A stretch of DNA of 46,574 nt from Chloroflexota bacterium (lineage in GTDB: Bacteria; Chloroflexota; Dehalococcoidia; Lucifugimonadales; Lucifugimonadaceae): positions 1 through 46,574 of the forward strand of contig JAQBUX010000003.1 in NCBI GenBank assembly GCA_027623795.1. The letters are read 5' to 3'. The notes beneath the pieces were generated by a model, which was given only the letters and a program-made list of their open reading frames with translations, did not search any database and was not told the origin of the DNA. Below, piece after piece: positions 31,368 to 43,436 of the stretch. Numbering within the stretch: position 1 is the first letter of the stretch; each line of letters opens with the position of its first letter. The position numbers and the translations under genes are program-made.

Positions 31368-32822
31368 CTACCGCAGTCGGAAGCTCGTGTAGTTCTCGGC
31401 GTCGTCGTCCGTGCGGCTTGAGCGCCTTGCGACGCCCGAGTCGATCGCCGCCTGCGCCGTCGCTGCGGCGACACGGCCAACCACGTTGGCGTCGAACACG
31501 CTTGGTATTACGAAATCCGGTCCGAGGCTGTCTTCCGGGATGACCGAGGCGAGCGCCCGCGCCGCGGCCAACTTCATCTCGTCGTTAATCTCGGAGGCCC
31601 GCACATCGAATATCCCGCGGAACAAACCAGGAAAGCCGAGCGAGTTGTTGATCTGATTCGGGTAGTCGGATCTTCCGGTGGCGATCACCGCAACGTTGTC
31701 GGGGACCTCTTCCGGCGCGATCTCGGGGGTCGGGTTGGCGAGCGCAAAGATGATGGCCTTGTCGGCCATTCCGGCCAGGTCCTCGCGAGTCACGAGACCC
31801 GGCCCGGACAGTCCCAGGAAAACGTCCGCGCCCTTCAACACTTCACGGAGTGAGCCGCTCTCATTGGCGGGGTTCGTGTTGTCCGCAAACCATTGCTTGA
31901 AACGGTTGTCGCTGTAGTCACGGTCCCGTGAGAGTGCGCCCTGCCGGTCAAATCCGACGATGTTTTTCACACCGTGACTCATCATTATCTTGGCGCAAGC
32001 CGTACCGGACGCTCCGACGCCAAGCACGACGACCTTGATGTCCTCAGGCTGCCTGCCGGTCACGGCAAGCGAGTTGATCAGCCCTGCGAGCATCACAACG
32101 GCGGTGCCATGCTGGTCGTCGTGGAAAACCGGGATATCCAGCTCTGCCTTAAGACGCTCTTCGATCTCGAAACAGCGCGGCGCCGATATGTCTTCCAGAT
32201 TGATCCCACCGAATCCGGGCGCGATCGCCTTGACGATCATGACAATCTCATCCACGTCCTGCGTGTCCAGGCATAGCGGCCATGCGTCGACGCCGGCGAG
32301 CTCCTTGAACAGCAGCGCTTTGCCCTCCATGACGGGCATTGCGGCCTCAGGCCCGATGTCGCCGAGCCCGAGCACGGCGCTTCCATCCGTCACCACGGCG
32401 ACCGTGTTCGCTTTGCCGGTGAGCGCCCACACCGCACTCGGGTCGGCGTGGATCGCCATGCAAACCCGCGCGACGCCCGGCGTGTAGGCCTTTGACATGT
32501 CTTCGCGCGTCTTGGCAGGGACTTTGCTCCGCATCTCGATCTTTCCGCCGAGGTGGAACAGGAAAGTGGCATCTGACACGCTGCGGATTTCCACGCCGTC
32601 GATACTGCCGACCGCATCAATGATCTCTTGGGCGTGCTCGACACCCGAGGCGTAGACCGTCAGGTCCCGGACCATGCTCTGGTCAGTGACGGCGACCACG
32701 TCGATCCCCGCCATGTCCCCGCCCTGATCACCGATGCATGTCGTGATCTTGCCCAGCATGCCCGGCGAGTTCTTGTACTCAGCGCGAATCGTGACGCTAT
32801 AGGCGGGGCCGGTGCTCACCAT
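31368..32822 (-). CDS. Malic enzyme with N-terminal ACT domain
   Basis: Oxidative decarboxylation of malate to pyruvate with NAD(P)+. The first 75 residues form an ACT domain (YSVTIRAEYKNSPGMLGKIT at the start), a likely amino-acid-binding regulatory unit. The catalytic domain follows: YTPGVARVC, the metal-binding VFHDDQHGTA and the NAD-binding VVLGVGASGTACAKIM. The end SLGFPGLFRGIFDVRA fits the short bacterial type. The open frame reaches 33230, but the ATG at 32822 has GAGGTG 7 nt upstream and begins the ACT domain; the longer extension is Ser/Arg-rich and overlaps the divergent gene. Length 484 residues. Confidence 0.93.
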   Translation of the reverse strand: MVSTGPAYSVTIRAEYKNSPGMLGKITTCIGDQGGDMAGIDVVAVTDQSMVRDLTVYASGVEHAQEIIDAVGSIDGVEIRSVSDATFLFHLGGKIEMRSKVPAKTREDMSKAYTPGVARVCMAIHADPSAVWALTGKANTVAVVTDGSAVLGLGDIGPEAAMPVMEGKALLFKELAGVDAWPLCLDTQDVDEIVMIVKAIAPGFGGINLEDISAPRCFEIEERLKAELDIPVFHDDQHGTAVVMLAGLINSLAVTGRQPEDIKVVVLGVGASGTACAKIMMSHGVKNIVGFDRQGALSRDRDYSDNRFKQWFADNTNPANESGSLREVLKGADVFLGLSGPGLVTREDLAGMADKAIIFALANPTPEIAPEEVPDNVAVIATGRSDYPNQINNSLGFPGLFRGIFDVRASEINDEMKLAAARALASVIPEDSLGPDFVIPSVFDANVVGRVAAATAQAAIDSGVARRSSRTDDDAENYTSFRLR

Positions 32823-33099
32823 GGGGATCACCTCGGTGGGACTATCCCCCTGACCGGGGGCGGAGAACGGCGGCCGTAATCGGCCAACGGTATTGGAGTG
32901 GTTCGTACTTAGCGGCTCGATTCTACGCTCGTAACCGATCGAAACCGCATGGCTTGTAGATACCAATCGCGCACCATCCGGGCGCGGTGAATCCGGCAAG
33001 CGGTAGGATATGCGAGCCCCGGAACGAACCAGGGTCCGGAATGGACTCTGGACCGACGTCGAACCGGGTGAAAATCGCCCCGAATCTTCAGGAGGACCG

Positions 33100-33885
33100 A
33101 TGACCCAGCGAGCCGAATCACCCGCCACCCCTCGCGGGCGTTTCACCACCGCGGAGATCACGCGCAGGGAAGACTTTGCCGAGGATTTGTGGCGCGTCTG
33201 GCTCAAGCCAGAACAGAGCTTCCTGTTCAAACCCGGTCAGTACTGCACGATCGGATACGACGGCATTGAGCGCGCCTACTCGATCGTCTCCTCTCCGCGA
33301 GAGGATGAGATCGAGCTATTTATCGAACGAGTGCCGCCGCCCGACGGCGCGCTCACCCCGCTCCTTTACAAGCTACAGCCGGGCGCAACGGTCACGCTTC
33401 GCCCACGCGCGAAGGGTGTTTTCGTGCTCCAACCGGACGCGAAGAACCACCTGTTCATGTCCACGGTGACCGGCGTCGTTCCGTACGTGAGCATTCTTCG
33501 GTACCACCTCGAAACTCTCGTCGGACTGGCGACCGACCCCGGGCAGCAACCGTTCGGTGAGTTCAACTTCTTTGTGCTTGAAGGCGCCAGCTACGTCGAT
33601 GAGTTCGGGTACGACGGAGAGCTTTCGCGCATGGCCGCGGAACACGACAACATCCGTTTCGTCCCGACCATCAGCAGGCCCCGCGAAGAGCGAAACGCGG
33701 GTTGGACGGGTGAGACCGGTCGCGTCAACGTGCTGACCGAGAAGTACATCGACAAGTTCCACCTCTCGCCGGACGACACCATCGTCTACGCCTGCGGACA
33801 CCCCCAGATGATCGAAGACGTCAAACACCGGCTCAACGGCACGGGATACCGCGTGGAAGAAGAGCGGTTCTGGAAAGAAGACTGA
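33100..33885 (+). CDS. Ferredoxin/flavodoxin-NADP+ reductase
   Basis: A 261-residue FNR-type flavoprotein. The FAD-binding motif is RAYSIVSSPREDEIELFIE. The NADP-binding nucleotide fold has TGVVPYVSILRYH where family members usually have TGxGIAP, and VYACGHPQMIEDVK near the C terminus. The protein ends with an aromatic tail (RFWKED), as in bacterial subclass I reductases. The ATG at 33100 has GGAGG 4 nt upstream; upstream frame from 33010 is not family-like. It could supply or use reduced ferredoxin, which is of interest because an FTR-type gene lies 9 kb away, but no direct link is shown. Confidence 0.9.
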   Translation: MTQRAESPATPRGRFTTAEITRREDFAEDLWRVWLKPEQSFLFKPGQYCTIGYDGIERAYSIVSSPREDEIELFIERVPPPDGALTPLLYKLQPGATVTLRPRAKGVFVLQPDAKNHLFMSTVTGVVPYVSILRYHLETLVGLATDPGQQPFGEFNFFVLEGASYVDEFGYDGELSRMAAEHDNIRFVPTISRPREERNAGWTGETGRVNVLTEKYIDKFHLSPDDTIVYACGHPQMIEDVKHRLNGTGYRVEEERFWKED

Positions 33886-42126: not shown

Positions 42127-42507
42127 ATGACACACGATTCAACAATCACCCCTGACGGAGATACTTCTAGCCAGCCACCCGACAGGGAATGGCTGTACGA
42201 GCGAACGACCGACGCGATCTCACGAGATCCGGATCTGGTCCGCCTCCGGCTCAAGCCTCTGACGCGATTCGATACCAACGTCACAGGCCGGTCTCAGTTC
42301 ATCAAGATCTACTACGGCATAAGCTGTGATTGCTCGACCGCGGCGGTACTAAGTGTGGAGGCGGCGACGGACAAGTCCCGGGACGAGTTCCAACGGGCTC
42401 TCCCCGCCCTGCTTGGGAAACTCAAGCTTCAGGCGGGCGGGTTCCGCAGGATGGATTGCGACTCGCACCTTCAGATGCGAATCCAAAACCTCCCGGGCGC
42501 GTCCTAA
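42127..42507 (+). CDS. Unrecognised small protein upstream of the selenoprotein operon
   Basis: I do not recognise this 126-residue protein. The N-terminal 40 residues are Ser/Thr/Asp-rich; then a compact part contains RFDTNVTGRSQFIKIYYG and ISCDCSTAAVLSVEAAT, followed by DEFQRALPALLGKLKLQ. The CDC pair suggests a redox or metal role but is not a family motif. The ATG at 42127 is chosen because the extension to 42019 runs into poorly conserved sequence near the PAC2 start. It ends 131 bp before the selenoprotein gene, so co-transcription is possible but not shown. Confidence 0.6.
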   Translation: MTHDSTITPDGDTSSQPPDREWLYERTTDAISRDPDLVRLRLKPLTRFDTNVTGRSQFIKIYYGISCDCSTAAVLSVEAATDKSRDEFQRALPALLGKLKLQAGGFRRMDCDSHLQMRIQNLPGAS

Positions 42508-42638: not shown

Positions 42639-43085
42639 ATGCCCAGGCGAAAATTGACACAGGAAGAGGCGCTGGCGGGAACGATCAAGTTCTCCGAGCG
42701 TTACACGGAGCGCGGCGCGTACGAGCTGTTCCCTGAACCGGAAGTGGTTGCCGAGGTCCAACGCGGACTCGCCGAAAACCAGGTCGAGCACGGGTACCGC
42801 TACTGCCCTTGAATGCCCTTGAGTGGCGATCCGGTCGAGGATCGCAAGAAGATCTGCCCGTGCGATCGGCACCACGAGGACATCGCGCGCGACGGGTTCT
42901 GTATATGAATGTTTTTCGTTAGCGAAGAGTTTCTTCGTGAGTACCAGGGCGCCGACGAGATTACCCAGACAATCGACGAGGCCGTAGGAGAGGGCGAAGA
43001 CTTGTTCGGCGGCGACTACCGCACGAAATCGGATGCGAATATCGGCCGGCGCGACGATTCGCCAAAAGACGCACCTAAAGATTAA
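42639..43085 (+). CDS. Ferredoxin-thioredoxin reductase catalytic subunit, selenoprotein with two selenocysteines
   Basis: This 148-residue frame reads through two TGA codons (42810-42812 and 42906-42908) that I interpret as selenocysteine, U58 and U90. The family motif C-P-C-x14-C-P-C-x12-C-x-C is otherwise complete: GYRYCPU, ICPCDRHHEDIARDGFC, then IU and MFFVSEEF. In the plant enzyme the second residue of the first pair and the last residue form the redox disulfide next to the [4Fe-4S] cluster; both are U here, while the four cluster ligands stay Cys (C56, C73, C75, C88). The start is ATG with AAAGG 7 nt upstream. About 55 residues of acidic tail follow. TGA ends normal genes nearby, so this is not genetic-code change. 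A SECIS-like hairpin follows each TGA. Confidence 0.9.
42826..42845 (+). promoter_or_regulatory. Candidate bacterial SECIS element 1
   Basis: A perfect 7-bp stem (GCGATCC/GGATCGC) with the 6-nt loop GGTCGA. The loop starts exactly 20 nt after the first TGA and begins with G, which meets the bacterial SECIS rules (loop 16-37 nt from UGA, G in the first two loop positions). Confidence 0.8.
42922..42938 (+). promoter_or_regulatory. Candidate bacterial SECIS element 2
   Basis: A 6-bp perfect stem (CGAAGA/TCTTCG), extendable by a G-U pair, with loop GTT. The loop starts 20 nt after the second TGA, the same spacing as element 1. An alternative hairpin starting at 42911 overlaps it. Confidence 0.7.
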
Positions 43086-43184: not shown

Positions 43185-43436
43185 TTGAACGCAAACAACG
43201 AGATCACGGTCTTCACCTCAAACGGCTGAGGACCCTGCCACATGGTGAAAGTGTATCTTTCACGCAAGGACATCCCGTTTGAGGAAGTCAACGTCTCCGG
43301 GAACCGTGAAGGTGTGGCGCGCTTGATCGCGCTCGGCCGCAACACGACGCCCGTGACGACCATCGGCGACGAGGTGATCGTCGGCTACAAGCCGAAGGAC
43401 ATCGACAGCGCCCTCGAGGCGGCCGGCATAAGCTAG
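43185..43436 (+). CDS. Glutaredoxin-like selenoprotein (U-G-P-C active site)
   Basis: The frame at 43242-43436 alone encodes a glutaredoxin lacking its active site. Extending it upstream through an in-frame TGA (43227-43229) gives 83 residues beginning with a TTG and reading NEITVFTSNG, U15, GPCHMVKVYLSRKDIPFEEV. The TGA falls on the first cysteine of the CxxC centre (UGPC). The rest fits the family: TTPVTTIGDEVIVGYK holds the cis-Pro region. AGGAG lies 6 nt before the TTG (3 nt before an alternative GTG at 43182). A hairpin with loop 22 nt after the TGA fits a SECIS. It lies 99 bp after the FTR-type gene, so the two probably form an operon and act together in thiol reduction. Confidence 0.87.
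43245..43263 (+). promoter_or_regulatory. Candidate bacterial SECIS element 3
   Basis: A perfect 7-bp stem (GTGAAAG/CTTTCAC) with loop TGTAT. The loop starts 22 nt after the glutaredoxin TGA and has G in the second position, as required. Confidence 0.75.

Follow-up and report, generated by a model that had tools for sequence, protein, structure and literature searches.

Plant and cyanobacterial FTR reduces thioredoxin. In its catalytic subunit (FTRC), which follows the pattern CPC...CPC...CxC, four cysteines serve the cluster and two form the redox-active pair, namely the second cysteine of CPC and the last cysteine of CHC. Ferredoxin feeds single electrons into the cluster; the pair then opens, its outer residue attacks the partner protein and its inner residue binds the cluster. 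The enzyme also has a partner subunit (FTRV/FtrA, PF02941), the absence of which is expected for FTRs outside oxygenic phototrophs.

An FTR with selenocysteine (Sec) at both positions of the redox pair is not new. GOS reads had already led to its prediction in 2008 (PMC2398784), and NCBIfam covers it with a curated equivalog model, NF041072 ('FtrB family double-selenoprotein'). For an FTR read, JCVI_READ_1093012271142, the 2008 study predicts two Sec that coincide exactly with the redox-active cysteines; these are the same two positions as in the FTR described here, and the text presents them on a single read with no organism or gene context. Reviews from 2022 and 2026 also list the family, the latter as an FTR that contains CxU and two Sec, and the 2026 review treats Sec-containing glutaredoxins with UxxC as a known kind of selenoprotein. 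The original prediction for the present locus, which considered such an FTR possibly new, has therefore been anticipated. The literature passages on NF041072 and double-Sec FTRs that were searched make no mention of a linked Sec-glutaredoxin or CxC protein, and no description of the three-gene, three-Sec module reported below was found in the texts covered, a search that left most subscription papers outside. A literature search on selenoproteins of SAR202/Dehalococcoidia gave nothing relevant.

Here, we analyzed a window of 46,574 nucleotides from a marine Chloroflexota bacterium (GCA_027623795.1, contig JAQBUX010000003.1, positions 1-46,574, forward strand; GTDB lineage Chloroflexota; Dehalococcoidia; Lucifugimonadales; Lucifugimonadaceae). 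The assembly is a fragmented draft of 357 contigs and is 83% complete. Elsewhere in the window, a malic-enzyme ORF on the minus strand (31368-33230) reaches with its 5' part into a ferredoxin-NADP reductase-like ORF on the plus strand (33010-33885); the true start of this long minus-strand gene probably lies further in. The features of the locus of interest are collected in Table 1.

Table 1. Features of the double-Sec FTR locus, in window coordinates.
Feature	Position	Strand	Remarks
Small CxC protein (126 aa), outside known families	42127..42507	+	Invariant CxC (C67, C69) and M-x-C..H (C111, H114)
FTR catalytic subunit (FtrB family), Sec U58 and U90	42639..43085	+	FeThRed_B; NF041072; TGA conservation
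TGA codon for Sec58	42810..42812	+	Aligns with the partner-facing (interchange) Cys of plant FTR
SECIS-like hairpin 1	42826..42845	+	7-bp stem GCGATCC/GGATCGC, invariant GT in loop
TGA codon for Sec90	42906..42908	+	Aligns with the cluster-interacting Cys of plant FTR
SECIS-like hairpin 2	42922..42938	+	7-bp stem GCGAAGA/TCTTCGT, invariant GTT loop
NrdH-like glutaredoxin, U-G-P-C active site (Sec15), TTG start	43185..43436	+	Pfam Glutaredoxin
TGA codon for Sec15 of the glutaredoxin	43227..43229	+	Third conserved TGA of the module
SECIS-like hairpin 3	43245..43263	+	7-bp stem GTGAAAG/CTTTCAC, invariant GT in loop

Translation of the FTR gene gave one frame of 148 residues that runs from ATG to TAA with two TGA codons, at codons 58 and 90, as its only internal stops. 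The product matches Pfam FeThRed_B (PF02943, E 7.6e-21) and passes NF041072 (cut-off 160 bits) with 220.1 bits over 119/121 positions; the protein itself does not differ from that family. Its motif reads C56-P-U58 ... C73-P-C75 ... C88-I-U90. Aligned with 7bzk, a solved catalytic chain of plant FTR, the product has U58 at the second cysteine of the first CPC and U90 at the last cysteine of CHC, and the four [4Fe-4S] ligands of the PF02943 pattern CPx/CPC/Cx are kept as C56, C73, C75 and C88. These comparisons establish the family and the TGA positions at the sequence level, and they bear out what the original prediction had claimed: a single frame with two internal TGAs, encoding an FTR catalytic subunit in which the TGAs replace exactly the redox-active pair while all cluster cysteines stay. 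The architecture is that of plant and cyanobacterial FTRC, but the redox pair is Sec,Sec instead of Cys,Cys, and FTRV, present in the plant and cyanobacterial enzyme, was found in 0/7 Chloroflexota genomes (the Synechococcus control was positive). A [4Fe-4S] cluster and ferredoxin-dependent activity are predicted for the window FTR. The closest solved relatives by sequence are 7pwe and 4tpu (named Rubredoxin), the latter presumably a Methanosarcina-type FTR homolog. Many Chloroflexota FTRs carry a C-terminal extension of rubredoxin-like look with two CxxC motifs; unlike these, the window FTR has no extension and has the Sec,Sec pair. An AlphaFold model of the window FTR with eight close homologs was too poor to use (pLDDT 44).

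Both TGAs are conserved. Seven further Chloroflexota/Dehalococcoidia draft genomes have an FTR gene with the two codons, and together with the source they provided eight loci for close comparison. In pairwise comparisons of these loci, the 31 codons between the TGAs (59-89) differed by as many as 14 synonymous changes and by no amino-acid change, and no more than two amino-acid changes were seen in codons 91-120, indicating that the stretches between and after the TGAs are both translated. When 250 genomes of the order were surveyed, exactly two TGAs were present in the FTR gene of all 45 genomes over the NF041072 cut-off, single-contig genomes included. Finally, reading 57 FTR genes for TGA placement revealed that TGA is restricted to the two redox positions and never falls on any of the four cluster ligands.

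Hairpins were scored by direct counting of stem pairs and by folding energy against a synonymous-codon null. The three TGAs of the locus, two in the FTR gene and one in the downstream glutaredoxin gene, each have a SECIS-like hairpin 23-26 nt behind them, in whose loop GU is invariant, and all three stretches fold more stably than the null. For hairpin 1, most of the 25 distinct sequences keep the stem paired (mean z -1.9), and 6/7 pairs were kept in 24/24 distinct sequences for hairpin 2 (mean z -1.8) and in 23/23 for hairpin 3 (mean z -2.0). Hairpin 1, clear from direct stem counting, escaped RNAalifold when this was run on all columns. The source genome contains tRNA-Sec with a UCA anticodon, selA (520 bits) and selB (316 bits). 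Of the selenocysteine machinery named in the original prediction, only selD was not recovered over the cut-off from the source assembly; a SelD candidate on contig C212 was rejected, being a truncated AIR-synthase-like protein. All seven near relatives have selD, with one TGA of its own, and its absence from the source draft is likely a matter of assembly incompleteness. None of the grounds that the original prediction had named against itself held up: a genome without the Sec machinery, homologs in close relatives that lack TGA at both positions and carry frameshifts, or TGAs produced by assembly errors. Hence the sequence evidence strongly supports the conclusion that the two TGAs of the window FTR encode selenocysteine.

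The FTR gene is flanked by two small genes. The original prediction had passed over both, although they are the more informative part of the locus. The glutaredoxin gene begins 99 bp 3' of the FTR gene. Its product matches Pfam Glutaredoxin (PF00462, E 2e-13), and the nearest solved chains are 7c10, 7c12 and 1h75 (NrdH). It resembles NrdH redoxin but scores below the NCBIfam cut-offs of NrdH (TIGR02194; 58.1 vs 85.75 bits) and of YruB (65 vs 88.6), and this NrdH/YruB-like glutaredoxin therefore probably constitutes a branch of its own. At a threshold of over 120 bits, a Sec-glutaredoxin with one TGA was found in 46/46 genomes with a U,U-FTR (the 45 over the NF041072 cut-off plus G544, in which the gene is in two pieces) and in 0/204 others. 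It lies directly downstream of the FTR gene in 44 genomes; in G500 the distance is 16 kb, and the glutaredoxin of G471 is divergent. Genome G538, which has an FTR of another type without TGA and no U,U-FTR, encodes this glutaredoxin in a Cys form (116 bits, no TGA). A second, related glutaredoxin group of 76-92 bits also occurs in the order (G511, G518, G510, G495 and others), about half of its members having one TGA and half none, which suggests frequent Sec/Cys exchange in that group.

Upstream, the gene for the CxC protein ends 131 bp 5' of the FTR gene. The protein had no match in Pfam or NCBIfam, a Pfam search with eight members gave chance matches only, and its AlphaFold model (pLDDT 66) had no Foldseek match in the PDB with E below 0.7. 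It was found in 45/46 U,U-FTR genomes and 0/204 others, and in 44 genomes its gene is directly upstream of the FTR gene on the same strand. The exceptions are G556, which lacks the protein, and G553, in which the gene sits on another contig than the FTR gene. In G544 (C97:1862-3580), additional DNA splits both the FTR gene and the CxC gene into two parts, as an insertion or an error of assembly would do. Since the genomes surveyed are related, the evidence for co-occurrence is weaker than the Fisher values for these distributions (about 1e-49 and 1e-51) suggest. The conserved order of CxC protein, U,U-FTR and Sec-glutaredoxin makes up a module with three Sec in total. Beyond the module, matches among flanking genes came only from the loci closest to the window, most other loci having only about 1.5 kb of flank.

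Of the 57 FTR genes, 28 have the redox pair U,U, 22 have C,C, six have C,U and one has U,C, and all four forms occur in Chloroflexota. The U,U genes form one group of the tree (support 98/96) and the C,U genes are scattered in separate places. Single-Sec FTRs with CHU or CYU, in which only the last position is Sec, were noted in other Dehalococcoidia (L052, L053, L054, L055, also L049 and L050); they fall in two separate FTR groups, one of which has the rubredoxin-like C-terminal extension with two CxxC motifs, suggesting more than one origin of Sec at the cluster-facing position. The U,C gene (L028:958-1809, minus strand, in another Chloroflexota genome) sits on a long branch beside the U,U group, a weakly supported placement (95/62). 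It encodes an FTR fused to two glutaredoxin domains; Sec occupies the first, partner-facing position of the FTR and the glutaredoxin domains have Cxx[S/V] sites. We take this fusion as an independent sign that FTRs on the U,U side of the tree may act on glutaredoxins. Beside the fusion gene, on the opposite strand, lie genes that appear to encode a thioredoxin-like lipoprotein and a membrane protein of the CcdA type. In the survey of the order, 40 genomes have only another FTR type, and none of the 250 has both types together. The two types are distributed as if they replaced each other, a pattern that shared descent could also explain.

We propose that the ferredoxin-dependent double-Sec FTR (U58-U90) reduces the neighboring Sec-glutaredoxin, which in turn reduces client disulfides, and consider this reading probable. 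C56, C73, C75 and C88 would hold the [4Fe-4S] cluster and, judging from their positions, U58 and U90 would be joined as a diselenide beside it in the oxidized enzyme. Electrons would enter singly via the cluster, presumably from ferredoxin. With U90 bound to the cluster, U58 would attack the selenylsulfide between U15 and C18 of the glutaredoxin; the mixed FTR-glutaredoxin intermediate could also be Se-Se, formed with U15. Reduced glutaredoxin would finally pass the electrons to client disulfides. In this scheme we infer the diselenide, the glutaredoxin as immediate acceptor and ferredoxin as donor from the module and from the plant enzyme.

The proposal presupposes that the TGAs are read as Sec. 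A frame kept open through TGA alone would look identical if a suppressor tRNA or a changed code inserted another amino acid. This is very improbable, given the presence of tRNA-Sec, SelA and SelB, the hairpin after every TGA and the confinement of TGA in 57 FTRs to the redox cysteines. In addition, TGA serves as the ordinary stop of 10 of the 41 window genes, indicating that the genetic code is not reassigned, and we rejected a changed code for the window FTR on this ground. The fragmentation of the source assembly could likewise invite the suspicion that mutation or a sequencing fault created the TGAs in a pseudogene or an assembly error. This notion is contradicted by the recurrence of both codons in 45/45 assemblies and by the purifying selection evident between them; it was rejected and deserves practically no credence.

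As to the partner of the FTR, the plant and cyanobacterial enzyme acts on thioredoxin, and the double-Sec FTR might do the same, with the Sec-glutaredoxin being a separate selenium user reduced by a flavoprotein thioredoxin reductase. A TrxB-like flavoprotein was indeed present in 7/7 genomes tested, so that FTR is not the only possible reductase and the glutaredoxin could be reduced by the flavoprotein instead. We nevertheless regard this arrangement as unlikely in view of the strict co-occurrence and adjacency of U,U-FTR and Sec-glutaredoxin and of the natural FTR-glutaredoxin fusion in L028. Another possibility, also doubtful though somewhat less so, is that the module serves one client, possibly the CxC protein, whose three conserved cysteines would form a disulfide or hold a metal. 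The distribution of this protein, which is close to that of the FTR, and its gene position directly upstream in nearly all cases speak for such a role, but G556 lacks the protein, G553 has its gene apart from the FTR, and neither sequence nor fold reveals a function. Within the proposed relay from FTR to glutaredoxin, the CxC protein is most likely a client or a metal-binding accessory. In a more specific form of this relay, to which we give about an even chance, a dedicated three-Sec chain would run from FTR(U,U) to glutaredoxin(UGPC) through diselenide intermediates, with a nearly obligate CxC...C..H partner of a new family, and would take the place of the FTRs with Cys or a single Sec that related lineages have.

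The pairing with a Sec-glutaredoxin gives the double-Sec FTR, until now a predicted family name, a concrete candidate acceptor and a testable pathway, and it ties an unnamed protein family, that of the CxC protein, to this FTR. With all four forms of the redox pair at hand in Chloroflexota, the question of why Sec is placed at one or both positions becomes directly testable.
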